The position numbers were made by a program, and so were the translations under genes. 61,204 nucleotides of DNA from Laetiporus sulphureus 93-53 (taxonomy: Eukaryota > Basidiomycota > Agaricomycetes > Polyporales > Laetiporaceae): the NCBI RefSeq assembly GCF_001632365.1, contig NW_024468533.1:445079-506282 (forward strand). The letters are read 5' to 3'. A model generated the notes under the pieces. The model ran no database searches and was not told the DNA's origin. It saw only the letters and a list, made by a program, of their open reading frames with translations. Shown piece by piece: positions 34,433-61,204 of the stretch (positions are counted from its first letter, which is position 1; every line of letters begins with the position of its first letter).

Positions 34433-35284
34433 TGTCACAGTATTAGGTGGCACCTTTCTTTTTGCACCATTAAAGTCATCATTTGGCAACCACAAGTGGT
34501 TATTCAGATGCCAACCTTCACATTGGTCTCACAAAGTGGATACTTAGACAAACAGCACAATACTGCCACATACATTGCGGATATGACTGTGTCTACCACA
34601 TGACCACCAAGCACCCATGATTCAGCCACCCAGTCACATGACACTGGCCACTTGCCCTATTCAGAAGTTATTAGGCGTTGGTCATGTAACATCAGATCAC
34701 TTGCCCAGAAAGGAACCCTTTGGACCATCAAGCTAGCAAGCACCCAATTTGTCACTCAGATAAGTGACACCAACCCTATTGGCTACTCCATAGTGGCTCC
34801 ATGTCACTGCTCAATAGTGGCACCACTTTGCTGCTCAAATAGTGGCACCACCCTCGGGCAATTATCCCATTGGATTAGATAGGATTACCTCGGTGTATCC
34901 ATGGCCTTTGTAGATAGTTGCCATAGTAGCTACCAGAACCTAACCAGTTCTGGCAATATGTTCACATGTAGATATCTGAGGTTTCACAGTTGCACAGTGC
35001 CAGGGGCCCTGCCCTATATGTATATCAGTACCTATGAGGAAGCTGGATATCCCCAGTTTCATTCATCTATTTCATGCAGCCTAAGAAGCCTTCACCCCCT
35101 CTTTGTGTGACATAAGGCTATGGGCCCTTTGAGCTCCTTTTTGTAGGCTGCATGTCACTGCATGTCTTTTTGGCCTAGCCCTTTGTGGCAGGCCCTATTT
35201 TAGTATTTGTGCAGGTCATGAGCATGGCTAGCACCTTGCAGCCATTTCCTTGCCTTTTAGCAGGATCTATGATGTGCTGTGACA
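34433..35284 (+). repeat. 3' LTR, complete (852 bp)
   Basis: TGTCACA at the start and TGTGACA at the end form a perfect 7-bp terminal inverted repeat. A purine-rich stretch GAAGCGAGGATAG directly precedes it and may be the polypurine tract. Confidence 0.85.
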
Positions 35285-41796: not shown

Positions 41797-42174
41797 TTAA
41801 AAACAATCTGACAATTTTCTGTGCCCCTGCTTAGTGTCTAACATAAGTGGCCACATATTTTCAGTGCAAGCAGTTTCAGCTGTAGCGTGCGGCTTTTTTG
41901 ACACACATGCCAATTCGATCTCTACCCAGTGTGAGCCTCAGCAAGACTCTGAGCAGCCTCAGGCTTCAAAGCACAAGGTCACACCCAAGATCAACCTCGA
42001 TGCCCACTACAAGCATCAAGAAATCAACAAGGAGCATGGAAGGCTCCTCACACTTGCGTCACTAGGTGCATCGTCAACAGACAGGCAGCATGCAGCAGCC
42101 AGGGTCGTTGATACCACACATATCATCAAATGAGGCATCATTCAATACTCTCGCAATCGCACCCCGCCACTTGA

Positions 42175-42680
42175 ATGCTACAAGCCCAGAAAAAATATCT
42201 CACCACCGGTGGTCACAAACCAGTGCCACCTCCAGAGCTCATCACATCCAATGCAGTACCTCCCCCCATCATCGCTCTCATCCCAGTTCAGCCCCTTCTG
42301 AACTTCATAAATACCAACATCGTTGCCCATCTCATTTGTCCACTCCCATCTGGAGTCAGGCCAATGATACACATCAAGATGCTCACCAAGCAGGTAGATG
42401 CTACCCACTTCAGGCTCCAGCCCATACTAGGAGCATTCATGTATCATCTCAGGGACGAACATCAGGGACCAATCTACAGTCTCGCCACAGAACTCGATAA
42501 GGTCTGCACTGATCTACATACTGGAATGTGCACCTACATGTTCATCGAGAAGCAGGTCATCAACACAGTCTGTCTGGAAATAGGAGGCATCAGCTTCAAG
42601 CAGATAGGGAAGGAAGAAAGGTTGCAGGAAATCGCCAAAGCTCTGGTCTTCATCACAAAGAAGCGATCTTTGAATTTTTT
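42175..42680 (+). CDS. E1 ORF A, extra ORF upstream of gag, unknown function
   Basis: The frame starting at 42175 is open for 235 codons (to 42882), but only the part up to about 42680 seems meaningful. Its centre, THFRLQPILGAFMYHLRDEH, and VCLEIGGISFKQIGKEER resemble the ORF at 49260-49733 of E2 (CVDLGKVSFKGINKEQAR). I recognise no known domain. Its position between LTR and gag is unusual for a Ty3/Gypsy element. Confidence 0.45.
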
Positions 42681-42885
42681 TCTACTAGTCTACATATATA
42701 CCTCACAATGTCAGAATCTGGTCATGCACACATGTCCACTTTCACGCAAAGAATGCAGGATGTGCTTTGACCAGACATCGAGACAGTGCATGACGGAAGC
42801 ACACTCCATGCTTCTAGACAGCCATCACCTGAGCTCAGCCCTCAGGACTCCACATCACAAATCAGAGGACCATCATCCCTGACTC

Positions 42886-44308
42886 CATCACTCTGCCCTG
42901 CCTACATACCTCTCACATGGTCGTATGATGGACACCAATATGAGCATCTTGAAGATGCCATAAGACAGTCTGCACTCAGCCAAATTTCCGATAACATTCG
43001 TGAATGGGTAATCATCGTCATGCAGTCTATGGTCGACAATGAGCTCAAGAAAATGTACAATGTGCTCGGCGACAAAATGTACGAGCACAAGAGAATTCTT
43101 GAGGCCTCCCTTGCATCTGCTCCAACTGAGCGATGACTCAAGGAGGTGGTACTCAAGTCCGAGAATGAGAAACTCTCAGATCTAATCAAGGCCCAGGACG
43201 CTCATGTAGTCATCCTCAACAACAAACTCACAGCAACACAGGGAGCAATGCTGGACATTGGCAAGAAAATGATGGAAATCAAGGCAGCAAACACCATGCT
43301 GCATCATGAGTTAGCTTCACTTAAAGCAAGTGGCGTCCCAACGGTGCAAGGTTACACCTCCAGAATGGTCCAATCGCACAAACTGCACATTAAGATAGCT
43401 GAACCTCCACACTACTCGGGCAAAGGAAGTCTGGAAGACTGGCTCCAACAACTTGGCATCTGGATGCAGTGGAATGAGATCAACGATGACGAACGAAAAA
43501 TCACCATGGTCCTGCTACACTTAGAAGGTGGCGCATTCACCTACATGTCAGAATACACAATCAAGGCAGTGGCAAGGCAATCACTCAGCACCTGGGAAGA
43601 CTTTGTCGACATTCTCAAAGTAAACTACAGGACAAGGATGTGCAGCAGCACTTGAAGGAGATCTGCTCAAAGACCTACCCCACTATGGTCTCCTTCACAG
43701 AGAAGTTCCACCAGTGGGCCACCAAGACCAACTTGGGGCATACTGCACTCATCGATTATATTGCTGAACATTGTGACAAGGATGTGCACCAAGCAATGGT
43801 GACCCGAGACAGCCTAGGCATCACTGACCTGACCACATGGCTAGAGTACCTCAACCTATGTTTGCAACTCAAGTCAAAGTTCAGAGCCGACAAGGCAGGA
43901 CAGCACGGAATAACAACATCATCATCACAGGCACTGAAGCCCCAGAAAGATCCTAATGTCATGGACATGAACCATGCATCCCAACTTACAAGGGAACAGA
44001 AAGGATGGCTGAAGAAGAAGCTGTGCGTATGCTGTGAAAAACACCTCTTCATATTTAAACAGCACTGCCCAGACCTCAAGTACAAAGGCAAATTCGAAAT
44101 GCCAAAGCGGGGTCAAGCGACAAGGGCAGTAATGACACCAGTGGCATCAACTAGTTCTGACAATAGCAAGGCAAGAGAGGAAGCTGTCCATGCATTTCTC
44201 ACCAGCTACGACACAAAGGGTAGCGAGGCAGAACCAGAACCAACTGTCGAGGCAGCTAGGATCACGGAGGTGGAAAATGATGAGAATTTTCTTCAGTGGG
44301 TTCTCTGA
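42886..44308 (+). pseudogene. E1 gag
   Basis: Coding sequence in pieces: LTWSYDGHQYEHLEDAIRQS, a coiled-coil-like segment, then the capsid core EPPHYSGKGSLEDWLQQLGI, LHLEGGAFTYMSEYTIK, WEDFVDILKVNY and LEYLNLCLQLKSKFRA. The zinc-binding region reads CVCCEKHLFIFKQHC, an imperfect CCHC knuckle. A TGA at 43135-43137 stands for a likely Arg, and a frameshift near 43640 separates the two halves. Gag ends at TGA 44306-44308. Confidence 0.75.
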
Positions 44309-44330
44309 GATCTGGCCAGAGTTCCCATAG
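44284..44330 (+). promoter_or_regulatory. E1 gag/pol -1 frameshift region (imperfect)
   Basis: Gag and pol overlap in the -1 frame. Right after the upstream pol-frame stop lies GAATTTT (44284-44290; zero-frame codons AAT TTT), then a 6-nt spacer. A stem of TGGG-TT-CTCTG (44297-44307) with CAGAG-TT-CCCA (44317-44327) follows. The gag stop falls at the top of the stem. The heptamer is not canonical in its first base, so it may be mutated. Confidence 0.55.
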
Positions 44331-46284
44331 ATACTGTAATAGTACCTACTCACTCTCACATGTACCAGTATCAAGTTTTTTATACATAGCATCAACTGGT
44401 TCATCAAAACATGTGATCGATCTACCTGTTCACCTCAAACAGGAAGTAAGGGAAGTTCAGACTGAGGTGCTCCTTGACTCAGAAGCATATTCTTATTACA
44501 TCAACTCACGGCTGGTTGATCAGTTGAATCTTGCTATGATCTCAATTGAGAAGGAGATCAGGGTTTATAATGCAGATGCATCTCACAGTAAGGGTGAAAT
44601 CATTAAGAAAAGGGTTCTTCTCAGTATAACTATCAGAAATCACACAAGCAGACAAAGTCTTCTGGTTACTGATATAGGTCACAAAGACATTATACTAGGC
44701 ATGAGTTTCCTCAAAGAACATAACCCAGAAGTGGATTGGGGAAAACTCACAGTCGATTTCACCCGATGCCCACAAAGATGCACACCCTCACAGGTAGCAG
44801 TCCAGGAGGAGGATCTGGAAGACACAAACATCCCCCACATCGAAGACTTAATGGAGTTCGTCAGTTCCCAGGAGTTAGGTGACAACTGGAACGACATGGA
44901 CAGCTTCATTAAATGGGTGTCATTATCAAAAGACCCTGATGCACAAGCCGTAGCATCACTCATCATGGGTCTTGACACCAAGAGGAATCAGGATAGAGTG
45001 CCACAAAATGGAGAACAGGACAAGGACTACTGGTCAGCCTATGTCCCCAAACACTTCCACGAGTATGGTGATGTGTTCTCCAAGAAGCAGTCAGAATGAA
45101 TGCCGACAAGAAAGCCCTATGATCATCCAATTGAACTTGTTTCAGAGGCATCGTTACCACACCCAGCAAAGTTATATTCTATGAGCCTACAGGAAAGAAA
45201 TTCGCTCGACACATGGATAGACCAAGAGCTGGCCAAAGGATACATCAAGAGATAAAGGAGTCCAACAGCAGCACCCGTCTTCTTCGTCAAAAAGAAAGAT
45301 GGGTCACTGAGGCTAGTACAAGACTACAGGAACCTCAATGCAGTAACAAAGAAGAACAAGTTCCCAATCCCATGCATTTCGGACCTCATTGACAGGCTCT
45401 CACATGCTAGCATATTCACAAAGCTTGACCTGAGGTGGGGGTTCAACAACATAAGGATCAGGGAAGGAGACAAAGAAAAATCCACCATACAGTCCTCGAA
45501 GACTTAGTTCGCGCTGGAAAGGTGGTAGTTTACCTAGATGACATCCTCATTTTTACGGACGATCTCGAAGAACACTGACGACTAGTAAAAGCAGTTCTAC
45601 AGTGCCTCCGGGACAATGACTTATATGCCAAACTGGAGAAATGCTTCTTTGAACAGTCCTCAATCGAGTATCTTGACATGATCATCAGCAAGAACTCAGT
45701 ACAGATGGACCCTGCTAAAGTCGAAGGCATCCTTGGCTGGCCAGCACCTACAAAGGTCAAACAAGTACAGGCCTTTTTAGGATTTGCAAATTTCTACAGG
45801 TGATTTATAAAGGACTTTGTGAAACTCGCATGACCATTAATGCTTCTCACCTGTAAGGACGTGCCCTGGCAATAGAAGGAAGAGCAAGACCAAGCCTTCA
45901 GTGCACTCAAAATGGTGTTTACCTCAGCCCCTGATCTTACAGCTCCCAAATGACACTGCACCATACCATCTAGAGACCGATTTTTCAGACTACGCAACTG
46001 GTGCAGTACTCGAACAACTGGGAGAGGACAAGCTATGGCATCCAGTCACATATCACTCAAAGTCACTCAACGAACATGAAAGGAACTATGAGATTTACGA
46101 CAAAGAGATGCTTGCAATTATTTGGGCACTAGAAGAATACTGGCACTATTTAGAAGGACACCCAGAACCCATTGAAAATTTGGTCAGACCATCTCAACCT
46201 TATATACTTTCACCAGGCACAGAAGTTATCCCGGCGCCAAGCGTGTTGGTCATTATTCCTCACACATTTCAATTTTGTACTTAG
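44296..46284 (+). pseudogene. E1 pol: protease, reverse transcriptase, RNase H
   Basis: The protease motif is VLLDSEAYSYYINSRLVD (Glu in place of the usual Gly in DSG). [55 protein letters not shown] and the catalytic VVYLDDILIFTDD at about 45530. Between GDKEKS (45480) and [11 protein letters not shown] the conserved FGL-NSPATFQ block is missing, a deletion of roughly 25-30 codons. RNase H: LETDFSDYATGAVL and YEIYDKEMLAIIWALEE. Stops at 45097, near 45577, 45802 and 45831 are TGA at expected Arg codons. Confidence 0.85.
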
Positions 46285-46486
46285 TCACTGACCTGGAAAG
46301 ACAATGCTACATGCTGATCCTCTGTCCAGGAGGCCAGACCATGAGAAGGGAGTAGACAATGACAATTCGAACCAAATGCTGTTAAAACCTGAATTTTTCA
46401 CTATCAATGCGATTTGACCTGCTCACGCATCTGAAGTTGATGATGCTCAACTACTGGAAAGGATTAAGAAGGCACTCACAGACAAC

Positions 46487-47983
46487 ATGATGATCAAGGA
46501 TTATCGTGCACTTTTGACTACAGGACAGCACAAATTTGGGAAAAACCTCGCAGAATGGAACTTTGAGCATGGACTGTTACTCCATCACAAAAAGGTTTAC
46601 GTCCCCAAAGATCAACAGCTATGCCTCGACCTAATAAAACTTCATCATGACGCATTACCAGCCAGACACCCAGGCAGGTTCAAGACATTGGAGCTCATTA
46701 CTTGGAACTATTGGTGGCCAGGAATGTCTGTAATAGTTAAACAATATGTACAAGGTTGCAACAGTTGTCAACGCAACAAGTACTCAAGGAAAAAACCATA
46801 TGAACTATTACAACCCAATGATGTACCAGGAGGACCATGGGAGATCATCACAGTTGATCTTATCACACAACTTTCTCCAGCCATGGACTTTAGGGGAGAG
46901 AAGAAGACGGCAATACTTGTCATCGTAGACAGACTCAAGAAGCGAGTGCACTTTTATGCAACGGACAACACAGTCACCTCATCACAAGTCGCAAACGTAT
47001 TCTATAATGAAGTCTTCAAACTCCACAGATTACCACACCAGATTATCTCAGACAGAGGTACTCAATTTGCGAGTAAACTATTTCAGGAGTTCTGTCAGAA
47101 GCTCAGTATAAAGTTTACAATGTCTACGGCATACCACCTCCAAACAGATGGTCAGACAGAAAGGGTTAACCAGGTGTTGGAACAGTACCTACACATGTAC
47201 TGCAACCACAGACAAAATGATTGGGTCTATTACCTGCCAATGGCAGAATTTTCATACAACAACCAGACTCATAAGTCCACCGCACTCTCCCCATTCTTTG
47301 TCGAATATGGCTGACATCCAAAAATGGCACCAGACGTACACGAATCAATATGTCACCCTTCATTGGAACATTTATTCACCTGCCAATTCAAGGCACAAGA
47401 ACAGGCAAAGGCAGCATTGAAAGTTTTAGATTCATGGATGAAATGGTACTTCGATGAGAAAAAGGGAGAAGTCCCATTCAAAGTCAGAGACCTAGTACTA
47501 CTCAAGGGAAAAGATCTCAGAGTAAAAGTCAAATCTGTGAAGTTAGGCACACAAAACTTTAGACCTTACAAAGTACTTTAGAAGCTAGGCCCAGTCACAT
47601 TCAGACTAGAGTTGCCCAAGCAAATGAAGGTCTTCCATGCTAGCAAGTTGATCATGTATCATCAAGACACGGTCAGAAAATGCAAACCCCCAAAGCCCTC
47701 AGCTATAGAAATTGAAGGAGAACCAGAATTTGAAGTTGAAGAGATACTAGACTCTAAGGTTGTGAGGGGAAGGGTCCAATACCTCATCAAATGGAAAGGC
47801 TATGACCATTCTGACGACACATGGGAACCCCGAACAAATCTCACCAACGCCGATGAGCTCCTGCAAGAATTTCACCAACAACACCCAAATGCAGCCAAAG
47901 CACCAATCAGGGTTGTCACTTATGGTGGAAAATGCTTCGAACTGTCCTCATACGAAGTTGCACTGATATCCACACACAGGATC
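46487..47983 (+). pseudogene. E1 integrase with C-terminal chromodomain
   Basis: The HHCC zinc domain is seen in LHHDALPARHPGRFKT and CNSCQRNK. The catalytic D,D-35-E core is present as ITVDLIT, ISDRGTQFAS and QTDGQTERVNQ. After a TGA at 47312-47314 (EYG-stop-HPKM, family Arg) and a TAG at 47579-47581, the sequence continues with [14 protein letters not shown] chromodomain follows: [35 protein letters not shown]. This places E1 among the chromoviruses, whose chromodomain is thought to guide integration toward heterochromatin. Confidence 0.9.
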
Positions 47984-48049
47984 AATATGTCCGACCACCC
48001 AGACGAGTTCTTCCTATATCATAAAATGATAGATAATGCCAAATCACTG

Positions 48050-48267
48050 AAAAAATCCTCAAATGAAGCAGCTGGATGGGATATTTATGCAGCAGAAATG
48101 CACGAAATCTCTCCACATTCATGAGCTGTGATAGGAACAGGAGTGGCCATTGACCCTCCCAAACACACCTACACATGAATAGCTCCATGCAGCGGACTGG
48201 CTGCTTGAGGAATTGACATGGACGCAGGAGTCATTGACCCAGATTACACCGGAGAACTCAAGGTCAT
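48050..48267 (+). pseudogene. E1 dUTPase domain fused after the chromodomain, cut by E2
   Basis: Downstream of the chromodomain the same polyprotein frame gives [20 protein letters not shown] (dUTPase motif 1), VIGTGVAIDPP (motif 2), and SGLAA-stop-GIDMDAGVIDPDYTGE (motif 3). dUTPase hydrolyses dUTP and lowers uracil incorporation during reverse transcription. Three stops or changes (48122, about 48177, about 48207, plus Arg to Cys in APCSG) fit CpG-to-TpG changes. The domain stops at GELKVI, where the LTR of E2 begins, so motifs 4 and 5 should lie beyond the nested insertions. Confidence 0.85.
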
Positions 48268-48922
48268 TGTCATGGTTTTACCTGACAAGTCTATAAATGG
48301 GAACATATTATTGGAACACATTATTTTTCATCATTTCAAGTCGCACAAGTCACGTGACCTGATGGGAGATAAGATAACCAATCATCTAATCACAAGACCT
48401 CAGATCTCTCCCGGCATAGTCACGTGACACTGAGCTCCTCGGCATTGCGTCATATGTTGCAATTGCCATGACACCATATTACGTGCTCAAGAGGAGCTCC
48501 GTCTCCATGGGTTATTATTAGGCAGGCTAATCAGAATAATTGGGATAAGTCATACAATTGTAGCACCATCCAGTAGAATAGCGTGTGACCCTCTTATATA
48601 GTACTGTACAGTAGCTAGAAATTATGTATATAAGGACCAGCGAGAGGAGGAGAGATCCTCAGTCTTATTCTCCTTCATCTACCACTACTATCACAGAGGG
48701 GTCTTACCAGACACTCTCAGTGTGCTATACATTTCAATTCACTCTCATATCTGTGATAGCACCCCTTGCTTCACCAGTAAGTCTTACTCCACAACAAGCA
48801 AGTCAGCCTCATCAGTGGACACGTCATATCGTCACAGCTCATCGCTGTTGGCTTTTACCCAGAGACCTTCAAGGGGACTCTTTTTTTGGGTTGTCTATCT
48901 TTCTCATCGGCGTGCCGTGACA
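48268..48922 (+). repeat. E2 5' LTR
   Basis: 655 bp, starting TGTCATGG and ending CCGTGACA, an inverted pair with one C/T difference. Contains TATATAAGGACC near 48627, a plausible promoter TATA box. Confidence 0.8.
48627..48634 (+). promoter_or_regulatory. TATA-like box in E2 LTR
   Basis: TATATAAG, about 295 bp before the LTR end, followed by AGGACCAGCGAGAGGAGG. Likely the element's own promoter (U3/R boundary). Confidence 0.45.
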
Positions 48923-49259
48923 TTAGAATAAGACTGACCTTTTATGCCCCAATCAAGTGTCTAACACTGGTTGCCATGCATTTTTGTCCAGAGATACATC
49001 TGCCCAGGGCAGGGCTATTTCCACACCACTTCCCTATACACTTCCTTTGCGTCTCTACTGCCTAAGCTGCTTCCTTCCTCCAAAAGGAACAGCACTGCAC
49101 CTCAAACGATCAACGGTACTGTTCCACCCAATGGACGTTACCACCCCTATCAACGACAGCCGTGAGTCCATCGCTTGACTCAAGACAATCTCGTTCAGGC
49201 ACAGCAGCTCGAAGACGGTCCCATTGGACATACAGCTGAACGCCACAAGCAAGAGTGTA

Positions 49260-49733
49260 AGGTTAGCCTCTGAATTGAAAGCATACCTAAAGAGACACCT
49301 AATCCATCTACTTCACTTCTACCTCCACACCCCTATGCCACCTTCTCCGCCATCGACATTATCAACTTCACACTCTCCAAGAGCTACCACCCTCGCAGTA
49401 TCCACGAGAACCCCAAAGGGATGCTCCCGGAAAACATTGCCCTCACTGTATATGCTACCATTCAGCAATACAAGGTCTTACAGCAGCTGCATATCGCTGC
49501 CAAGTTCACCAAGGAGCAGATAAAGTGTCAAGACAGAATTCTTTGACACCTAGGAGAGATAAATGCATGCATTGGAGATGGACACGATTTCACCTTTGTC
49601 GATAGGTGCATCGCTATTAAGCTTTGCGTAGATCTAGGAAAGGTCTCTTTCAAAGGGATCAACAAGGAGCAGGCGAGAGTAGAAAAGAACTTAGTAAAGT
49701 TTGAGAAGGAGTCTTGTTACTGGCCCTACTAAG
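49260..49733 (+). pseudogene. E2 ORF A, related to E1 ORF A
   Basis: The frame runs with one TGA (near 49545). Recognisable parts are LSKSYHPRSIHENPKGMLPE, VLQQLHIAAKFTKEQIKC, HLGEINACIGDGHDFTFVDR and CVDLGKVSFKGINKEQARVE, ending CYWPY before TAA at about 49733. The last part aligns with E1 ORF A, so this is a conserved accessory product of the family. Function unknown. Confidence 0.5.
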
Positions 49734-49959
49734 CCAGTCTTGTCATTTGTATCACTTGTATATGCCACGATATAGTTTTAACTTCATCTATTGAAACTAC
49801 GTGGTTAACCACTACTTGGAGGACGACGAACTTCATGTCTCGTTCACCATATACTTCATCTATCAACCACTACTTGTCGGCTCACCCATCATTCTTCATT
49901 ACAGCTCGCTCAATATTGAATGAGCATATATTCGATTTGTCCCCTTTCTTCTCTCCGAC

Positions 49960-50222
49960 GCAGGCTACGACATTCACAATCCGGTCAGAGATTACGCAGA
50001 AGGACAAATCTGGGAGTTCTACGCTAGACTCTATCAAGAAGATGAAGAAAGATTTCAACAAGTGTGGAATGAAGATTTCCCCTTACAAGTGCATCCGAGA
50101 CCCACAGCACTAGAACGAAGGAATCGACTTATCGAACAAGCCCTACTCCAGGAACAAGAACAACAACTCTATCAGGAGTTGACAGAAGAGGACCTTATCG
50201 CCAACAACACGGATCCCTTCTA
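49960..50222 (+). CDS. E2 ORF B, Glu/Gln-rich, unknown function
   Basis: A short frame in a different phase from ORF A: YDIHNPVRDYAEGQIWEFYA, LYQEDEERFQQVWNEDF, then a Glu/Gln-rich helix (LLQEQEQQLYQELTEEDL), ending before TAA at 50220-50222. Only the position between ORF A and gag links it to ORF B of E4; sequence similarity is not evident by eye. Confidence 0.4.
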
Positions 50223-50479
50223 AATTGTCATCAAACTCATTTCCTCTTTCTTCCACCTCGATTCCCATGTCTTAGTATAATCTTGGAGGCATCCTGTTTC
50301 CAGGAGGAACCACAAGGAGTGAGCCCGCAGACCCCTGAAGGAGTCAGGCCACTTTCCAATCATCAGAACCAGAAGCTGCTGCCCCTGGTTCAGAGCAACC
50401 CACAAGCAGCACACCAAAGGCATCAGGTGTAGTCAGAAACCCGTCGCCGTCAGTCTTACCAGAATATGCCACTCCCTCG

Positions 50480-51523
50480 ATGTGGGAATGGGATGGCGTA
50501 CCCTATGCCACTATTGAAGAGGCAGCCAACACGGCCGCACCAGCCACAGTCCCAGTAGACATCAAGGACTGGGTGATGAATGTGGTCCACTCATTCATCC
50601 TAAGAGATGTAGTAGGCTCCTATGAGGCTCTATGCCAAAAGATGAATGAAAGGCACGAATGAACAGCTGCCAGCATAGAGGAGGAGATACTGGCCCACAT
50701 TCACATTGAGATAATGGTGGTGGAAACCCGAGAACAGTTAAAAACTGCAAGAGCACAGATCGGCACCCTCTTCACCGATGTTGAAAGACTCGCTAAAAGC
50801 AGTACTGCTCTGACACTCGAAGCCCAATCAATCCACAAGGACTTCAAAGATTACAAGGATGAGGTAAAGGGCCAGATGGATGCCCTTTACGCAAACATGG
50901 TCACCCTGAAGGAGGCTCAGGAGAAGACCACCACTTACATTGTCGGCTTGGAGTCTCGACTCAACAATGCCATCATCAATGCACCTCCCCAAGGTATCCA
51001 ACAACCGGCCAGCCAATCCACCCAATCGCCCTGTAGAATTAAGCTCCCAGATCCTCCAAAGTACTCTGGAAGGAAATCGTTGGAAAACTTCAAAACCTGA
51101 TTTATGAATCTTCAAATTTGGTTAGATTATAACAATTTCACCGATGACAAGAACAAAATTCAACAAGCCAATGCCCACCTTGAAGGAGGAGCTGCTCTAT
51201 ACATGAAAGAGTATGCAATCAAGCTCTCCTCTGGGCAACCCGTTGGCACATGAGCAGAATATACACGGAAACTGGAAATGGCTTACAAGATGCTTGACCC
51301 CAAGCATACAATCCAATCGCAACTGGATGTGCATTGCACAATTCACCACAAGACAATGATCACCTTTGCAGAAAACTTCAGGGCCTATGCACCTGAATCA
51401 GGATACTCTGATGAAGATTTAATCATCAAAATAAGGGAACAACGGTCGCCACACATTCAAACGGTGATGTCAGTCACAGAGACGCTGGATCCCACCAAGA
51501 TTCCAATGGATTGGATGGATTAC
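50480..51523 (+). pseudogene. E2 gag, truncated by E3
   Basis: Starts MWEWDGVPYATIEEAANTAA. A coiled-coil segment (50714-50960) is followed by the capsid core: LPDPPKYSGRKSLENFKT, an in-frame TGA, NLQIWLDYNNF, HLEGGAALYMKEYAIKL, TGA, LEMAYKMLDPKHTIQSQLD, ending IPMDWMDY where the E3 LTR begins. The order matches E1 gag closely (PPHYSGKGSLEDWLQQL, HLEGGAFTYM). The zinc knuckle should lie beyond E3. Confidence 0.8.
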
Positions 51524-52211
51524 TGTTACGGTTTCAGCGCTTCATGGTCACGTGACAGTTTAGTTGCACGTGACACTTACTATTTATGGTTCATAGGTCT
51601 TGTGGACATATTCTAGGGTTAGCAGTTTTCGTTTTTACGATTTACTCACTCAGGCCATGCAAACAAGACCTTCGTATTTCAGGTTTCTATTTCACCTGTA
51701 CTAACATTAGCTCGCCAACTACTTGGCTCGCAGCAGTTAGTATTTGTCTCAGTCTATTTCATTTACTCTATGAATAGCTGTAGGAGACCCCTTGTACTAG
51801 TACCCCAGACTATAGGTCTGCGACTATATAAAGGGGCGGAGCAGCAGCTGGAAGATAACCTCTTCCACCTGTGACTCTGAACGTTCTCAGTTCTAGAACC
51901 CTCGTGCAATCGTACTCGCTCTCAAGAGGTAGTAAGCTCGTACGCTTACTAGAGTCAGAACAGCGAACCTAGTAACCTGTGGGTGAACGTGCAGTAGCTG
52001 TAGCGGCCAAGGCCTAGCAAGGGTAGAGTGAGGACCTCACTGCTATATCGTCTACTAGGCTTGACCACACTATAAACCCTGCTAATAGTCTGCCTGACTA
52101 TTAGAGACGTCAGGTACATTCGATACCTAAGTCTCCGTCCACGTTGTGGACTAGTACGTGTGAGAAAGCACACGTGGTTCTGAACATTCTAGCAGGGAAC
52201 GCTTCATAACA
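51524..52211 (+). repeat. E3 5' LTR
   Basis: 688 bp, TGTTACGG at the start and CATAACA at the end (TGTTA/TAACA perfect inverted ends). CTATATAAAGGGG at about 51823 is a good TATA box. The sequence interrupts E2 gag between two codons of a recognisable capsid segment. Confidence 0.9.
51824..51831 (+). promoter_or_regulatory. TATA box in E3 LTR
   Basis: TATATAAA followed by GGGGCGGAGC in the middle of the LTR; likely promoter of E3. Confidence 0.55.
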
Positions 52212-52372
52212 TTTGGAAGAGATTTTTCTATAGGTCAACCTGTTTAGGTTTAGAACCACTTACAAGAAGTGGAGTCTACTTGGACGCTACAGAAAAACAA
52301 TTCCATCAAGTCCTCAAACAGGGGTATCCAATTCTAGGGAACTCGGTGCACGCTGCGGCCTCTGCACCACTT

Positions 52373-52482
52373 GGAAAAACAGGGAGAACCACTCTGAAGT
52401 ATCCGTCGCTACGGTACTTCGCCCAAGGAGGGAAAAACAGGGAGAACCACTCTGAAGTAGCTGTCGCTACGGTACTTCGCCA
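52373..52482 (+). repeat. Tandem duplication in E3 leader
   Basis: About 50 bp starting GGAAAAACAGGGAGAACC occur twice, at 52373 and 52431 (period 58), ending in CGGTACTTCGCC. The copies differ by a few bases (TATCCGTC versus TAGCTGTC). Confidence 0.8.
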
Positions 52483-53099
52483 GACAGGAGATTCTCGGAG
52501 AAGCGGAACCTGGGTACTTGTTGCGGCAAGGTACCTGCTGAAGGCAGTGTCGACTTGAGCCCCATCCTCACTGAAGGCACTGGGTATCCAGAAGATGCCG
52601 GTTAAGGGCCACCGAAAGAAGGCACCCAGACCTTGCCGAGGTCAGTTTTCAATCAAGAAAACGTGAATAGGAAGGACGATTGGTTATAGGACACCAAGCA
52701 GAGGAAATCAAAAAGCCAGAACGACCAAGCGCTCAAACGGGAGTAGGCAGGAGTTCGAAGTGACTAGCTGAGCACTTTAAAAAGTGAGCACAGGATATCT
52801 GAGGTCTAGAAAGGAAGACTAGGACTCCGACTGGTTGACGCTACCAGGCAAATCAAAAGGCGTACAAGATTGGTTAAGGGCCACCAAAGATCAAAAGGCA
52901 GGAGTGCGGAGTTTTTGTTACAGGAACGAACTCAAGCACTAGTGATTACTTGTGTGGTAATCCAGAAGAGAAGCCCTCATCTGAGGCACACGTTGAAGAC
53001 GTGCTAAAGCCCTTCCCAGGGAAGGCAATCAAGAAATCTTAGGACAAGACAAGATCCAACACGAGTGCTTCACAGGAACACGATCAAGTATCTGAGGAA

Positions 53100-55139
53100 G
53101 ATACACCAGAAACATGACCGGTGACTTCTGACGAAGAAGTACCACCATTTACGCTCAGTGACGCCACCACAGAGGAGTTAACAGACCTCTACGACAAAAA
53201 GTCGACAGAAGCGGTTCAACTTTGACTTCAATTTAGGCTAGGATGAGTCTATGAACCAACAGATCGCCCAAGGCTAGAGCAGCTCGAGGGTGAAATCGAA
53301 GAAATAAGACAAGTTCTTCACGGAAGGGAAAACTTTGATGAAGAATCTCTACGAATCTTTGACGAAGCAACAGAACTTCCACGAGGAGAATCAATCCAAG
53401 TTGAATGACAGGAAGGGCGTTCACAGGAAACCAGTGGATTACAGCCAGTTAATCCTCTCAGAACAAGAACAGTTCCGTTCGAGAGATCTATCTCGGATAG
53501 TACTACTCGACCAGATTATCCAGGAATCACACATCTCAGAAGGGACCAGCCACCCCACCTACCCAACATGCCTGGAATCACATGTTCGGTTTCAACTGGA
53601 TCAAGACCAACTGGTAGCTTCCAGTTCTCAGGAAGTATGGCTACACATGCACGATACAACCCGGCTCTCGGACCACCAGTCCATCCCGGAACTTGTACCG
53701 ATGCCATCTGGAATGAGTACCAACAAGCATTGGGACTCTATGCACAATACCAGGGAGCAATCCCCAAGCAGCCAGCAGCACGGGAAAAGAAGATGGGAAA
53801 AATCAAGAAGTTTAGAGGAGACAAACGAGAATATGCATCATTCCTCTGAAACGTGGAACGATACCTACAGGCAAACGATGGAGTCTACAGTGATGACTTC
53901 AGCAAAATTGCCTTCATCCTCTCTCAAATTGACTCCTCATCCATGGCAGGAAAGTGGGCCGAGTCATGGGAAGCCAACCAAATGGCAAAATATAGCAATC
54001 TTGGGACATACCAAGACTTTAAGACGACACTTACCGAAAAGTATGGAGGTGTCGCAACCAAGGACCAAGCCTGGCAAGTACTTCTCAAGGGAAAGCACAA
54101 GCAGGACAAGCAAACCGTCAATGAGTATATTGGAAATCTCGATATCCTCTACCGATATGCCGAAATCGACGACGAATACGCCAAGCTCATCCACTTCAAA
54201 TGAGGCCTTAATGAGAAACTTGTAAAAAAAGTCTTCATCACGGAAAATCCACCAACGACCTATGCAGCAGCATGCAGGGCCGCAAGAAAGGTCACGGACC
54301 TCCAGGATATTCATAGCAGAAAGACAAATATCTTCAAGTTCATCTCAGGCTCTTCAGGAAGTGAAAGAAGGACGGAGAAGGACCCTGACGCAATGGACGT
54401 TGACCGGATCTCCCCAGAAACCCATCAGAAACGTTCTGTGGGTGGACTCTGCTACAACTGCAGAAAGTCAGGACATGTTGCCACACAATGCACAAGTCCA
54501 GAATATGATCCGGCACCAGATCGCTCAGGAAAGACAGCTTCATATGCCAAAACCAAGACATCCAATTCCAGGACAAAGAAATACTCCGGATCTGGCAAAC
54601 GAAGAAAGACTTCCAAGCTGACTAAATCTTACTCCAAGAGAACGGAGAAGAAACGATGACGAGTAAAGAGGGTCGAGGAAAGCGATTCTGAGGATAACTC
54701 GGAGGAGTCAGAACAGGAAGAATCAGAATCTGAATCATCAGAATCTGAAGAAGTATCTGAACAAGAAACGGTTGTTCACAGGGTACGAAGAACTTGTCCT
54801 GTTAAAACCAAAACAGTTCAAAAAATCCGGAGAACCAAGGATGAATCCAGCGACTCAGAAGAAGAGTCATATGTGGTTCGAAAATTCATCCCCAAGGAAG
54901 AACTTGCCAGAATACGACGGGAAGATGCACTCAAAATGCGAGGAGACCGTATTAAGAAACGCAACATGACGATGCCCCATCTCGACGATCTTCTGGAATT
55001 CAGAGACAATCCAGATAGATATAAATATGCATGCCGATATCCACCACCCATGGAAAAAGACGATCCAGAGGGTTTTGGAATTGGGTGCACGTTGGGATCT
55101 CGTGGCACCCAGATAAAGAAACGGTCCTCGAGGAAGTAA
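53100..55139 (+). pseudogene. E3 gag with CCHC zinc knuckle
   Basis: One reading frame runs from before 53100 to TAA at 55137-55139, broken by TGA codons. Parts: ATTEELTDLYDKKSTEAVQL, LEQLEGEIEEIRQVLHGREN, GKIKKFRGDKREYASFL, TGA at 53848-53850, NVERYLQANDGVYSDDFSKI, KWAESWEANQMAKY, QDKQTVNEYIGNLDILYRYA, TGA, GLNEKLVKKVF. The knuckle is CYNCRKSGHVATQC (CX2CX4HX4C). A Ser/Glu-rich tail and FIPKEELARIRREDALKM follow. The start lies in the leader and is not resolved. The overlapping frame at 53335-54225 is a shadow. Confidence 0.85.
55070..55110 (+). promoter_or_regulatory. E3 programmed -1 frameshift signal (slippery site and bulged stem-loop)
   Basis: GGGTTTT at 55070-55076 sits as G-GGT-TTT in the gag frame. 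It is followed by a 6-nt spacer (GGAATT) and a stem: GGGTGC-ACG (55083-55091) pairs with CGT-G-GCACCC (55101-55110), nine base pairs with one bulged G and a 9-nt loop. The pol frame (-1) is open from 55025 and leads into the protease. Same heptamer, spacer length and stem design as in E4. Confidence 0.85.
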
Positions 55140-55870
55140 TCATACGAGGCGATATCAAATGAGGAAGCGAAATATACCTCAATATCGTCTTCCGAGATTA
55201 CGATGGCACAAGAACCCGAAGTATTCCAGCAAGAGCCTTAGTCAATTCTGGAGCAAAAGGAATGTTCATCAATGAATCGTTTGTGAAGGAAGCAGGACTT
55301 CATCTTCTCAAATCGCAGAAGGAAGTCAAGATTCGCAGTGTCGATGGAAGTCCCATCAACTCTACAAACCAACGATTCAAAGGAACTGTTCAGGCAGGAA
55401 CATACAAGTGGAATGATGACTTCCTTGTCATCGACTTAGGAAAAGAAGATGTGATCATTGGCAATACGTGGCTTCATGATCACAACCCAATTATCAATTG
55501 GCAAACAGGTGAAGTCAAGGTCCGTCAATATGTAGAAAACGTACCAGGCGAGGAACCATGGCCTTTCAAAAACAAAGACACTGTTCGTCTTCCAATCACC
55601 AAAAAGGAGAAAGCCAAAGCCAAGCAAACCTTGAGAAGGATTGACTGGTCTGATGTCGATCCCATACCGGATGAAGCAGGAACCGTTGATTCGGACCTCT
55701 TGCTTGCATACATAAAAGGCGCACCATACTTGGAGGATCAGGAAATAGGAGAAAAAGAAGCTATTTTCGCCTATCAACCTGATACTGGCATACTCCAAGA
55801 AGTTACACTCGAAGAAAAAGAACATCGCTCAGCCGGAGAAAGGAAGATGCAGTATCTTGCACTGCGATGA
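55140..55870 (+). pseudogene. E3 protease region
   Basis: Entered from gag by -1 frameshift: WVHVGISWHPDKETVLEE, then a TGA at about 55158 (likely Arg), LNIVFRDYDGTRTRSIPARA, and the retropepsin motif as LVNSGAKGMFINESFVKEAG. The catalytic Asp of D-S-G is Asn here (GTCAAT, from a likely GTCGAT, a CpG-to-CpA change). Then DDFLVIDLGKEDVIIGNTWL and HNPIINW, the usual C-terminal protease landmarks. TGA at 55868-55870. Catalytically dead as written. Confidence 0.85.
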
Positions 55871-55939
55871 ACGAATGCCAAGAAAGATCCCCATCAAACA
55901 AGAAAGAAAGATGGAATCTTATGGAAGGCATCAAACAAG

Positions 55940-56884
55940 GTGCAGGAACTCACGCAAAAGAAAGCACTCGAGGAGAAGAAGAATTCCAAGAAGAAAGTAA
56001 CGATACCATCGTACCTTCTTAAGTACAAGCAGATTTTCGAAGAAAAGGCATCGGAACAGTTACCACCACATAGATCTTATGATCACAACATAGACTTCAA
56101 GCCGGACTTTGTTCCTAAACGAGGAAAGGTCTATAACCTATCAAAGCCAGAAGAAAAAGCTATGAATGCCTTTATCAACGAAAATCTTGCGAAAGGATAT
56201 ATTTGTCCTTCACAATCTGCAATGGCATCACCTTTCTTCTTTGTAGGAAAAAAGGACGGTGGGCTACGTCCATGTCAGGACTATCGCTATGCGAATGAAG
56301 GAACAATTAAGGATGCCTATCCACTCCCACTCATATCGGACCTAATGGATCGACTCCACCATGCCAAGTATTTCGCGAAGCTTGACATTCGTCGAGCATA
56401 TACCAATGTCAGAATTTGTCAAGGAGACGAGTGGAAGGCTGCCTTCATCACAAAACATGGATTGTTCGAACCCACAGTCATGTTCTTCGGAATGTGCAAT
56501 GCACCGGCAACCTTTCAGCGAATGATGAACGAAATATTCGCAGAAGAAATTGCCAAAGGATGGCTACTATGCTATCTGGACGACATCCTCATCCTTGGCG
56601 AAAGTGAACAGGAGTTGGAAAAGAAGCTTGAACAAGTCATTAAGAAGATGGTCGACAATGACCTCTATCTCAAGCTAGAGAAATGCGTGTTTAAACCTAT
56701 GTGCACAGACTTTCTAGGACTGGTTCTCCTCCCAGGATGACTTCAGATGGATCCAGCAAAAGTCAATGGGATCATCAAATGGGAAGCTCTGACTGGTGTA
56801 AAAGGAGTGCGAGCATTTCTAGGATTCGCCAACTTCTATCGAAAGTTCATCCGGAACTATTCTGAAATTGCAAGACCCTTAATT
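55940..56884 (+). pseudogene. E3 reverse transcriptase, cut by E4
   Basis: Begins upstream as one polyprotein; the 55940 frame gives YDHNIDFKPDFVPKRGKVY, LAKGYICPSQSAMASPFFFV, GKKDGGLRPCQDYRYANEGT, FAKLDIRRAYTNVRI, FFGMCNAPATFQRMMNEIF and the catalytic LLCYLDDILILGESE. After a TGA at 56738-56740 (likely Arg) come [16 protein letters not shown] and [20 protein letters not shown], where the LTR of E4 interrupts. RNase H and integrase should lie downstream of the window. Confidence 0.9.
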
Positions 56885-57599
56885 TGTCACAGATTTTCAC
56901 GTTTTCACCTCTGCACGTGACCAAGACATCATTTGACATCAGCGCTAGGCTGTTCAGAAAGGAACGAACCGGTACGCGAAGTACTAACAGTCCTAGACGC
57001 CACAAAGGTCCAGGTCTAGTCACGTGACATATCACGTGATATCCACACATGTGACAAGTAGCGCTGGTATTAGGTAAGCCTAACTTATACAGTAATATCA
57101 TCCCACCTAGAAGCCACGGTCGGACTCCGGAAGAATCCAACGAAGGGGATACACGACACTGGAGATATGTCCTTAAGGGGATATTAGTTCACATGCACGA
57201 GGTAGATAGATACCATGCCACCGGAGATGTAGCCATTACAGGCAATACCATTCCCATGGTCTTACTAAGTAGTTCAGAGATTCGGCATACATGACACACG
57301 TAGTCTGACAGGTAGTGGTAACCAATCAGACAATGTCCATTAGCTAGCGGTTCTGGGGTATCAGGGTACCAAGGGTCCCTCCGCTCATGTATATAAGTCA
57401 GAGCTCTGAGACGCATAAGTCCCCCAGACTTATTCTCATCTCTGCTACGTCTATTCATATAGTGTCACCAGCGACCACTTGCAAGTCGCTGCTTTACCTT
57501 GATCATCTTTGTGTCCATCCTTACTTCGACAACAGTCAGTAAGTGTTTGATCCTAAGGTCATAGGCTTAGTCGGCGCTCTGCGTCCTAAGTTTGTGATA
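56885..57599 (+). repeat. E4 5' LTR
   Basis: About 715 bp. Starts TGTCACAG; the end is taken as TGTGATA, which pairs with the start except for one base, so the right boundary is less sure than the left. CTCATGTATATAAGTCAGAG near 57384 looks like its TATA region. Confidence 0.7.
57390..57397 (+). promoter_or_regulatory. TATA-like box in E4 LTR
   Basis: TATATAAG in the LTR, followed by TCAGAGCTCTGAGACGC, which contains an 8-bp palindrome (CAGAGCTCTG). Likely promoter of E4. Confidence 0.45.
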
Positions 57600-57632
57600 G
57601 AAGAATAAGTCTGCTTATCTTACCTGCCTCGA

Positions 57633-58334
57633 GTGCCTGCCCAGCGTACTCGCCGCAGTGTTGCGTCTTCGCACGTCCACCCGCATGTTAGCGGTGTCAT
57701 ATCTTCACCTGACGTTCTGTCAGTCGCCGACTCTACCAGCGTAAGCCGCACCAAGGCATTGTGCAGCATCGACGGTGTCATCCGTTGTCCTCGAGCAAGA
57801 ACTCCAGAAGAGTTCTACGAGCAGCGGCCCATAAGACCCCTGCCAAGGCCAGGACACATCTCTACGGGAGGTCGGCCCCCTCGCGGCACTAGTTCAGTTT
57901 CTATTATCCAGACTCCCTCGGTCAGGCGACCAAGACTACCTGCAGGACCATCTGGTCCAGATCTCAATCAAGGGACATACGTCGAGACCGCTACCGGATC
58001 TCATTTCATCTATCCTCTCACCGTCTCCATCATCTCGACTCAGCGCGTCGAAGGCACCCTTCGACAAATTCGTATCCTACTCACTAAACGATACCGTCGT
58101 CAACTTGACGACCACGACATCTTCGATCTCGAGCATCTCATACTCAAGCTCGAATCCATCCGCACCAACATCGCGGAATTCAAGCTTTCCTTCGTTCACC
58201 AACACGTGGTTCGCGACTTCTGCAACTACGTCCAGGAAAGGAAGCATCAGGGTGGAGAAGCTCGCTGGATAATCAGAGATATTATCCAGAAGTATCGTCT
58301 AGGAATACAGGTCACAGGGCGACCTTTGCTGTAG
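57633..58334 (+). CDS. E4 ORF A, 233 codons, unknown function
   Basis: Open from a GTG at 57633 to TAG at 58332-58334; no ATG start is apparent at the left end, so initiation is unclear. The N-terminal half is Pro/Ser/Arg-rich and probably disordered. The C-terminal half is helical and charged: GTLRQIRILLTKRYRRQLDD, HDIFDLEHLILKLESIRTNI, VVRDFCNYVQERKHQGGEAR, WIIRDIIQKYRLGI. No family recognised. It occupies the place of ORF A in E1 and E2, though similarity by eye is weak. Confidence 0.6.
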   Translation: MPAQRTRRSVASSHVHPHVSGVISSPDVLSVADSTSVSRTKALCSIDGVIRCPRARTPEEFYEQRPIRPLPRPGHISTGGRPPRGTSSVSIIQTPSVRRPRLPAGPSGPDLNQGTYVETATGSHFIYPLTVSIISTQRVEGTLRQIRILLTKRYRRQLDDHDIFDLEHLILKLESIRTNIAEFKLSFVHQHVVRDFCNYVQERKHQGGEARWIIRDIIQKYRLGIQVTGRPLL

Positions 58335-58349
58335 ATACGAATATTCACT

Positions 58350-58886
58350 TTGTATATGTCTTCATCGGGCGATTCGAACAATCTTGATAACTTCGAGCAA
58401 TTAAATCCAATCGGTCACACTTTCGATTATCTTTGGGATTCAATTCCACGTGTTCTTCGAGACAGAGCAGGCGAAGCGTTTGCTACATACGAGGACACGT
58501 TCGACATCGACTACCACGACGTATATCACATATACGCCCTCCAAATCTATCCAGAATTCGATTGGAGGAACATCGTGGTTCATATCTGTTATATCCCTAT
58601 TGGGTCCGAAGAACCCGAAGACCGTCTCACCGAAGCTTACAATAGCTTCGTCGATTGGCTCGAAGAAGTCGAGCGCATTTGCGAAATCCATCATAACCAT
58701 CAGTGGCCCGCAGTCAGAGACAAGACCAGGTTTTTGTGGCAACCCTTCGTCAAGGTCATTCATCGAGACCTTTGCCTGCTGCGAAACCAACGCTCAGGAT
58801 GAGTAATTGTCCGACAGGCCACGATTGCCAATAGGCATATTACCGAGTTCGAAGAACATCTTCGTGAGATAGAGGAAGAATTGTAA
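58350..58886 (+). pseudogene. E4 ORF B, unknown function, one in-frame TGA
   Basis: Starts MYMSSSGDSNNLDNFEQLNP, 15 nt after ORF A, and continues with GEAFATYEDTFDIDYHDVYH, YPEFDWRNIVVHICYIPIGS, and a C-terminal helix. TGA at 58800-58802 stands for a probable Arg (GGA-TGA-GTA); the frame resumes and ends EHLREIEEEL with TAA at 58884-58886, two bases before the gag ATG. The tight spacing of ORF A, ORF B and gag suggests translation from one RNA by reinitiation or leaky scanning. No known domain recognised. Confidence 0.6.
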
Positions 58887-58888
58887 AG

Positions 58889-60598
58889 ATGACGACTCCC
58901 ACCCCCAATGATCCAAGCTTCTCTCGTGCTCCATCTCCGGAGCTTCTCGCATGTCTTAATATTGTTTTGCAACCCCCGAATCCTATCATTCGTCAAGCTC
59001 TTGCCGACACAGCGCCCCCAAATGCGAATATACCCGAAAATGTGAAGAACTGGGTAGTTGATCTGGTCACAAACGTGGTGGAAGAGATGTGTCAACAAAC
59101 GGTGGTGCATTACGAAAATCTTATCCAGCGCCAAGCGCATACAATGGAACGTAACACCACGGAGTTCCACAATCGAACGGTCTTCTTGGACCAACATCGC
59201 CAACAATCTGAGTCTAGAATTGCAGACTTGGAAAAAACCTCGGCAGCTTTAGCTGAGGATAACAAAGCCATTAATGACTCATTTGTGGCATTTGACGATG
59301 AGGTCAAGGATCTCCAAACCAGGATGGAAGACCTGAAGAAATCACACGATCGACTTCGCGCATGGGCATCTACACAGGGAAGAAAGGCAGGGCAAGGCAG
59401 TAACAATGTCGACGACACGGACGACGACGATGAGCCGTCGTTTGGTCGCAAGGGTAAAGGCGTAAAAATTGACCAACCAGAAAAATATGGTGGCAATAAG
59501 GACGGAGTCAATCTCGATGATTGGCTCGAACAAGTAATGCTCTGGTTGAAATATACCAGACATACCAAAGACGAGTCCAAAATTATGTCTACCCTCTTGC
59601 TCCTGAAAGGAGGAGCACGCGAATACATGCAGCATTGAATCACCGAAATAAACGAAAACAACAAGGCACCCGGAACTTGGGCGGAGTTCTTCTCAGAACT
59701 TCGCACGGCATACGAATCATTGGACAAGGATGACAAGAAGCGAACGGAGTTAGAAGCCTTCGTCAAGAAGGATCATCGAGACTTCCGGAAGTTCGCAGAA
59801 GACTTCCGTCCAAAGGCAACAGGTACAGGCTTCTCGGATCAAGATTTGATCGAAAAGATCAAGAAACATATTCCGGAGAAAACGTGGCTGCTCATGCTGG
59901 CAGACACGACCAAGGACAACTGGCCCAAGAAGTGGACCGAGTTCCTTACATTTGCACTTCGGATATTTACATCATTACAACGAGAAGGCCACCATGCCAA
60001 GGCCGAAACCAAGGATCCGAATGCTATGGAGGTTGATGCAGTCGGGAAGAAGGGAAAAAGTAAATCGGGCAAAGCGCGAAGCGTGCAGGACGACAAGTTG
60101 GTTTGTGCCAACTGCAAAAAGAACAAGCCAACGTTCTTCAAATCGTCGAAACGCTTCAGCAAGTATTGCACCGATTGTTTCAAATTGGACCATGTCAAGA
60201 AGCAGATTGAGAAGGAGAAGGAGACAGCCACGAAGAAGAAGGATGGGAAGAAAAAGGACGACGCCAGGAACAAATCCAAGTCGTCCAAAATGAGACAAGT
60301 AGCATCGGATTCTGCTTCATTCGATAGCGAAATGGACACGGACAGTGGCCCCGACATCAAGAAGCACAAGAGCTCTTCCTCTAAGACTAAGGGGAAGGGG
60401 AAGGAGACAGCTGCGCATATCAGCGACTGCAGCATCCACTCGGAAAGCAAGCCTGATGCATCTGAGTCGGACGAAGATTTCGCCGCGATCCTCTCAAGGC
60501 TCAGGTGCCTGAGGGCGAATGGATCCAGTTCATCAAGGAAGGCGGGAGAAGGTTCTTCAAGGAAGGATCGGAAGGGTTTTCTCAAAGGGGATCTGTAG
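58889..60598 (+). pseudogene. E4 gag with a CxxC-CxxC zinc site instead of a CCHC knuckle
   Basis: ATG at 58889. A coiled-coil region (59090-59350: QSESRIADLEKTSAALAEDN) precedes the capsid core QPEKYGGNKDGVNLDDWLEQ, LLLLKGGAREYMQH, TGA at 59636-59638 (likely Arg), then WAEFFSELRTAYESLDKDDK, FRKFAEDFRPKATGTGF, WPKKWTEFLTFALRIF. The nucleic-acid-binding part is CANCKKNKPTFFKSSKRFSK followed by YCTDCF: two CxxC pairs 19 residues apart. A Lys- and Ser-rich tail ends at TAG 60596-60598. Confidence 0.85.
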
Positions 60599-60617
60599 GC
60601 AGCTCGTCAGAGTCCCC
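60574..60617 (+). promoter_or_regulatory. E4 programmed -1 frameshift signal (slippery site and bulged stem-loop)
   Basis: GGGTTTT at 60574-60580 reads G-GGT-TTT in gag. A 6-nt spacer (CTCAAA) follows. GGGGATCTG (60587-60595) then pairs with CAGA-G-TCCCC (60608-60617), nine base pairs with one bulged G and a 12-nt loop that holds the gag stop codon. The -1 frame is open through this region and enters the protease. Confidence 0.85.
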
Positions 60618-61204
60618 AGAACATTACAATATAAGACCTGTACATCTAGCACCCGAATCAGACACCTCTGTAGATCGTCGCAACGCAGAGGATGATAATG
60701 TAACAATAAAGAATTCGTCTCCAAATTTATCATCATTCTATTTACCAGTTACATTATGGGTGTACGGCAAAAAATCGAGTGCCGAAGCTCTAGTCGACTC
60801 AGGAGCATATTCCATGTACATCAGCAAGCGATTCGTAAAGAACAATCGAATCGCAACCTCCAAGCTAAACACTACATACAAAGTGTACAATGCTGACGGA
60901 TCCCAAAATAAACATGGTGAAATAACCGACTATGTAAAAGCATACCTCAAAGTCGGAGATCATGGTTCTACCCACTGTCTGCTAGTCACGGACATCGGGA
61001 AGTTAGACATGATCATTGGGATGTCATACTTACATCAGCATAACCCAGAAATCAACTGGCAAGCTGGAGAATGGAAATACTCACGATGCCCGAGTACGTG
61101 TCACCACCAGAGGCTTCGTAAAAAACAACAAGCCATTGCGAGAGAGGAAGCTGAAGAAATCTCGCAACGAGCACAACAAGTGGCAGATGAGGAGCCAACT
61201 GCAT
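60600..61204 (+). CDS. E4 pol start: retropepsin-type protease, continues past the window
   Basis: Pol frame, reached by -1 frameshift, open from about 60541 to the end. It gives LSSFYLPVTLWVYGKKSSAE, then ALVDSGAYSMYISKRFVKNN with an intact D-S-G active site. KVYNADGSQNKHGEITDYVK, LLVTDIGKLDMIIGMSYLHQ and HNPEINWQAGEW follow, the standard order in Ty3/Gypsy proteases. No stop in the visible 200 codons. RT, RNase H, integrase and probably a chromodomain are expected downstream. Confidence 0.9.

Follow-up and report, generated by a model that had tools for sequence, protein, structure and literature searches.

Candidate −1 ribosomal frameshift signals with unlike hairpin arms at the gag-pol junctions of Ty3/Gypsy elements in Laetiporus sulphureus

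Analysis of three Ty3/Gypsy elements (E2, E3, and E4) in a 61,204-nucleotide (nt) stretch of Laetiporus sulphureus 93-53 DNA (contig NW_024468533.1, positions 445,079 to 506,282; the window), and of their relatives in the same genome, revealed a common arrangement at the junction of gag and pol: a slippery heptamer in the gag phase, a spacer of a few nucleotides, and a predicted hairpin, with pol in the −1 frame. The hairpin arms differ in sequence between lineages, and compensatory changes occur within them. Judged from these features, each site is very probably a −1 programmed ribosomal frameshift signal, through which a minority of gag translation events would yield Gag-Pol.

Results

A first-pass annotation of the window had proposed such signals in E3 and E4. 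Rereading the sequence confirmed that both elements place G-GGT-TTT in the gag phase, followed after 6 nt by a 9-base-pair (bp) stem with one bulged G, and the frame check agreed that pol is −1 to gag in each; phase, frame, spacing, and hairpin together are what a −1 frameshift signal predicted from sequence should have. The arms, 6 bases 3' of GGGTTTT, are GGGTGCACG / CGTG(G)CACCC in E3 and GGGGATCTG / CAGA(G)TCCCC in E4; an outer stacked U-A pair permits an alternative reading of the E3 stem, with 10 bp and a 5-nt spacer, and the first loop base of E4, 60596, begins the gag stop codon. The annotation had further stated that the open part of pol covers the site, which is correct for E4, whose pol frame runs open from 60466 through the end of the window, and only partly correct for E3: its −1 frame has no stop at the site itself, but a UGA at 55160-55162 intervenes before the protease frame starts at 55163. 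Both gag frames carry an in-frame stop (54657-54659 in E3, 59636-59638 in E4), and the window copies of both elements are partly decayed.

The annotation did not mention E2 (approximately 43.1-48.1 kb), which encodes protease, integrase, and chromodomain and has a like layout (Table 1), with arms GGG-UU-CUCUG / CAGAG-UU-CCC. Among 47 E2 copies, a −1-frame stop abuts the 5' side of the heptamer in 44, and in 46 the gag stop stands at +22 (nt past the heptamer's first base). Because of these two flanking stops, pol could be entered only within about 25 nt from the heptamer; this confinement fits a shift at the heptamer and is the strongest positional evidence for one. By-eye comparison for an E2 pseudoknot gave a 4-bp possibility (GTCT/AGAC) that is broken in some copies.

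Table 1. Positions of the candidate frameshift sites and neighboring frames in the window
Feature	Position	Strand	Remark
E2 slip site G-AAT-TTT	44284..44290	+	GGATTTT in 40/47 tabulated copies
E2 stem-loop: 3 bp, 2x2 U-U internal loop, 5 bp, 9-nt loop	44298..44326	+	7 nt past slip site
E2 −1-frame stop codon	44281..44283	+	immediately 5' of slip site
E2 gag stop codon	44306..44308	+	within hairpin; 22 nt after first slip-site base
E2 pol open frame, aspartic protease	44284..45099	+	−1 to gag
E3 slippery heptamer G-GGT-TTT, gag phase	55070..55076	+	sequence, frames
E3 spacer, 6 nt	55077-55082	+	sequence
E3 stem-loop: 9 bp, one bulged G (55104 or 55105), 9-nt loop	55083..55110	+	prediction
E3 hairpin parts	arm 55083-55091, loop 55092-55100, arm 55101-55110	+	
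E3 gag C-terminal open frame with site	54660..55139	+	gag stop +67 nt from first heptamer base
E3 pol, aspartic protease part, −1 frame	55163..55870	+	frames, domain match
E4 slippery heptamer G-GGT-TTT, gag phase	60574..60580	+	sequence, frames
E4 spacer, 6 nt	60581-60586	+	sequence
E4 stem-loop: 9 bp, bulged G at 60612, 12-nt loop	60587..60617	+	prediction
E4 hairpin parts	arm 60587-60595, loop 60596-60607, arm 60608-60617	+	
E4 gag open frame	59639..60598	+	Retrotrans_gag, under Pfam cut-off
E4 pol, aspartic protease, −1 frame	60466..61203	+	spans site, continues past window end

The host genome (assembly GCF_001632365.1; 38.6 Mb in 124 contigs) holds many relatives of these elements, at least those among the matches listed, from which we tabulated 134 junctions: 47 of E2 (the window copy included), 43 of E2', 13 of E3, and 31 of E4. 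Diverged copies L125, L128, and L130, termed E2'', are included in the E2' count. Beyond the 134, four copies of the C38 group and three of a dUTPase family were inspected, giving seven lineages (E2, E2', E2'', E3, E4, C38, and the dUTPase family). Identity to E2 is mostly 42-47% for E2' (protease region); identity to E4 is 50-55% over the matched part for C38 and 31% for the dUTPase family. Repeat views of copies already counted (L012, L013, L015, and L016-L030) were dropped, and the table does not include L135 (an E4 copy with a spacer 2 nt shorter), L172, L183, or listed matches that were not fetched. Scans of viral contigs with the E3 reverse transcriptase and with the E4 pol returned no relatives.

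Across the tabulated junctions, GGGTTTT or GGATTTT stands in the gag phase in 117 of 134, and TTTT is kept in 132. E2 copies have GGATTTT (40), GAATTTT (3), GGGTTTT (1), or another heptamer (3), and E2' copies have GGATTTT (35), GAATTTT (4), AGATTTT (2), or GCATTTT (2); GGGTTTT is found in 11/13 E3, 29/31 E4, and 3/3 dUTPase-family copies. The T run is retained against codon preference, as phenylalanine codons in ten window frames are TTC 59 times and TTT 30 times. Several copies (L101, L102, L104, L125, and L130) keep the UUU A-site half with a weak P-site half, which could reflect decay or slippage by a single tRNA.

The gag phase of the heptamer and the −1 frame of pol were found in E2, E3, E4, E2', the C38 group, and the dUTPase family. 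No pol-frame stop occurs within 96 nt past the site in 45/47 E2, 33/43 E2' (one stretch scored was shorter than 96 nt), 30/31 E4, and 4/13 E3 copies. The gag stop lies at +22 in all E4 (31/31), C38 (4/4), and dUTPase-family (3/3) copies, as in E2, and at +19 in E2', E2'' included (43/43), so that in six of seven lineages it falls +19 or +22 nt from the first heptamer base, within the hairpin; E3 stands apart, with the stop at +67 in 10/13 copies.

In scored copies of all seven lineages, a 26-34-nt hairpin, for which 9-13 pairs are predicted, begins 5-7 nt past the slip site. Scoring called for one hairpin, 24-36 nt long and beginning 5-8 nt past the slip site, and each value was set against 7,428 background positions (every second base) across the three window elements; scoring of the E2 window site began two bases too far, and the same hairpin was obtained. 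The E3 score is reached at 0.13% and the E4 score at 0.54% of these positions, and 21 of 23 scored copies from the seven lineages fall in the lowest 1.2%, the others being L134 (1.7%) and L097 (2.3%). Among 300 dinucleotide shuffles of 45-nt stretches per lineage, the observed score was reached by 0 for E3, 2 for E4, and 2 for the dUTPase family. Five of the seven lineages are independent of the original proposal for E3 and E4 and test it, because none entered its making. When arms were exchanged between lineages (42 combinations, bulged bases omitted), pairing averaged 44% with a maximum of 78% (E4 with E2), compared with 80-100% for each lineage's own arms. An Rfam search of 42000-61204 found no known frameshift element and one subthreshold small nucleolar RNA match far from the sites.

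Compensatory changes were examined on this genome's copies, a test already suggested in the first-pass annotation, and double changes that keep a pair were found in E2, E2', E3, and E4. Canonical pairing is 98.7% in E2' (34 distinct rows), 93.9% in E3 (11), 96.0% in E4 (14; L057, with a 1-nt insertion, excluded), and 76.9% in E2 (36), the last figure counting the U-U positions, without which 273 of 288 cells are canonical; as the rows are related copies from one genome, these and the following numbers are indications and not probabilities. With partners slid by 1-3 nt, pairing reached at most 57% in E2', 59% in E3, 65% in E4, and 67% in E2, and among 1,000 shuffles of the 3' letters the observed fraction was reached by 0 in E2', 6 in E3, and 10 in E2. 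Double changes affect 4/7 pairs in E2', 3/9 in E3, 3/10 in E2, and 1/9 in E4. One C-G pair becomes U-A in E3 copy L010, and one G-C pair becomes A-U in E4 copy L051; E3 copy L134 retains the stem with several G-U pairs; E2 copy L107 has an altered outer pair; and E2' copies L094, L097, L125, L128, and L130 have one to several pairs changed on both sides. Covariation is strongest in E2' and between lineages and weakest within E4. The unlike arms of the seven lineages and these compensatory changes support the idea, put forward for E3 and E4 in that annotation, that the stem is retained while its bases change and that selection would be acting on RNA pairing.

Discussion

Our results suggest how the junction might work. 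On encountering the hairpin, a ribosome translating gag would have G-GRU-UUU in the P and A sites. Both tRNAs would re-pair one base back, from GGU or GAU to GGG or GGA and from UUU to UUU, and the pol frame would then be read. Ribosomes that do not shift would terminate at the gag stop, met within the hairpin in six of the seven lineages. The hairpin would be expected to stimulate slippage, and the efficiency of slippage might set the ratio of Gag to Gag-Pol. A more speculative extension, which we regard as doubtful, is that slip site, hairpin, and enclosed gag stop form a module retained in at least six lineages, in which almost everything but UUU could change and termination within the hairpin helps to set the Gag:Gag-Pol ratio, by analogy with the nearby stop that matters for shifting in pea enation mosaic virus RNA2 (PEMV2).

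Several observations weigh against the interpretation of the sites as frameshift signals. Every relative was drawn from a single genome, and decay is evident in many copies. In 3/4 C38 copies (GTCTTTT) and in L125 and L130 (GCATTTT), the P-site half of the heptamer is poorly suited to re-pairing. Shuffle results are weak for E2 (13 of 300), E2' (8), E2'' (12), and C38 (12). Slid controls also give double changes, in at most one pair in E2, two in E2', one in E3, and one in E4, so that the single double change of E4 is equaled by its control; for E2, E3, and E4 the best slid version has at least as many pair types as the true alignment, and for E3 886 of 1,000 shuffles reach the observed number. 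In E2, shuffling the 3' letters barely reduces the paired fraction (0.761 compared with 0.769), and the outermost pair is broken (A-C) in 10/36 rows. Finally, a stop interrupts the pol frame no more than 96 nt past the site in nine of 13 E3 copies, including that in the window, the exceptions being L008, L010, L014, and L134. We read these stops as decay because their position varies between copies; they nevertheless make E3 the weakest case and lessen its value as a working example.

Of the alternatives, the one that survives best, although we consider it improbable, is that the hairpin is an RNA element with another use, such as packaging, dimerization, or stability, and that pol is expressed by reinitiation or from its own start. 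Selection could act on hairpins for such different reasons, and a gag stop within the hairpin in most lineages also fits termination followed by reinitiation. An element of that kind, however, would not predict a hairpin starting 5-7 nt past an in-phase slip site in seven lineages or a nearly invariant TTTT, and the −1 stop abutting the E2 heptamer fits a shift exactly there.

It is very unlikely that the 9-bp stem with its bulge is a conserved feature of fixed shape that is recognized as such, for example, by a host or element protein. E3 and E4 each have one bulge, on the 3' side past three or four inner pairs, and the first-pass annotation had taken the bulged stem to be shared, a view that the relatives contradict: a different base is bulged in E3 copy L009 with the stem retained; among E2' copies, L093 carries the bulge on the 5' side and L086 on the 3' side; E2 has a 2x2 U-U internal loop instead, which becomes paired to give a perfect stem in L105; and the dUTPase family has no bulge. 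That the sites are a product of chance, a commonplace gag/pol overlap encoding a Gly/Asp-Phe dipeptide with no special local folding, is scarcely credible, since seven lineages with unlike arms fold at this point, nearly all scored copies rank among the lowest background positions, and compensatory changes occur, most clearly in E2', even though the heptamer alone is unremarkable (3 GGGTTTT matches in the window versus 5.18 expected) and single-lineage shuffles are weak in four of seven lineages.

The relationship between gag and pol frames was surveyed in 2003, reportedly by Gao and colleagues. Arrangements with pol at −1 are known in animal and fungal long terminal repeat (LTR) elements; that survey is cited as having found a −1 pol in 28 of the 51 animal elements it covered and a less skewed proportion of +1 to −1 in fungi (PMC5009743). 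According to the same source, G_GGU_UUU is among the most shift-prone heptamers and G_GAU_UUU is a known −1 site (PMC5009743). G_GAU_UUU, the heptamer of most E2 and E2' copies, is also that of a fungal RNA virus, Fusarium oxysporum virus 1, and of a plant RNA virus, PEMV2, which have genomes of kinds unlike these elements. The PEMV2 stop is described as lying 3 nt past the site, whereas the gag stop here lies 12 or 15 nt past the heptamer (PMC5009743). With the −1 gag-pol signals of retroviruses and LTR elements the L. sulphureus sites share an X-XXY-YYZ heptamer in the gag phase, a short spacer, a downstream structure, and a −1 pol overlapping gag; they differ in that the structure is a simple hairpin, some 30 nt long, that encloses the gag stop in six of seven lineages, that the heptamer is of the G-GRU-UUU class, and that a single genome carries the signal in several families whose stems have been replaced.

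Sirevirus belongs to another superfamily. Its gag-pol boundary is reported to carry a conserved motif with a potential 11-bp stem and covariant bases (PMC5009743), and thus likewise a conserved pairing-capable motif at this boundary; the differences are that these are plant elements, that pol is +1, and that the loop has 4 nt. Yeast Ty3 is a Ty3/Gypsy element that also makes Gag-Pol through frameshifting, but its shift is +1 at GCG_AGU_U, with a 3' stimulator that is thought to act without intra-mRNA pairing (PMC5009743). For PosPlaTy3 of Postia placenta, described as a chromodomain Gypsy element with a dUTPase (PMC2864245), E2 shares the chromodomain and a relative in the L. sulphureus genome has a dUTPase before the protease; the word "frameshift" does not occur in the main text of the PosPlaTy3 paper (PMC2864245). 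Searches of an open-licence library for such junctions turned up no title or abstract beginning with a description of this conserved hairpin, which is weak evidence for novelty. The kind of signal is already known, and the present sites are a well-supported further case with a natural series of changed stems.

The elements have Ty3/Gypsy domains, with zf-CCHC, RVP_2, and RVT_1 in E3, RVP_2, H2C2, rve, and Chromo in E2, and RVP_2 and a subthreshold Retrotrans_gag in E4; gag, protease, reverse transcriptase, and integrase domains are all present across the elements taken together, and no single window element was seen to hold all four. No direct repeat pairs flanking the elements were found (seed 16, length 60), and a candidate E3 LTR start at 51524 is single in the window. 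This position may be the E3 5' LTR start, inserted in the gag region of another decayed element (approximately 50.3-51.5 kb), and a near-identical copy of the LTR-like start interrupts an E4 copy elsewhere (L136). By eye, the 3' end of E2 (approximately 48000-48290) resembles a decayed dUTPase after the chromodomain; the dUTPase profile gave no match in E2 at 47582-48121. In the dUTPase family (L137-L140), PF00692 lies ahead of the protease in pol (E value of 2.7e-40 in L138), and the position of the dUTPase is reported to vary in the Gypsy pol of P. placenta (PMC2864245). Elsewhere in the window, two inverted repeat copies of 278 nt (482-759 and 34495-34772; 89% complementary) lie 34 kb apart, and a block of N at approximately 31.3-31.9 kb lies between copies of a short direct repeat that recurs near 34.4 and 35.2 kb.

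The analysis also took in 20 further protease loci. L172 and L183 are E2' by their gag ends, the frames of L183 being disrupted, and L165-L169 resemble the dUTPase family by eye, with the junction beyond the stretch. Four loci, L170, L173, L178, and L180, have at least 580 bases of open pol frame upstream of the protease; these may be single-frame Gag-Pol elements or have a junction further upstream, and they could serve as a contrast set. Given these further loci, some with a long open pol frame upstream, the analysis does not establish that all such elements of the genome carry the signal.

The seven sequence-unlike versions within one genome provide a comparative set for the roles of spacing, stem length, bulge, and a stop within the stem. 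For the elements themselves, the presence of gag and pol in different frames at this junction would be the wrong sole ground for calling them broken.

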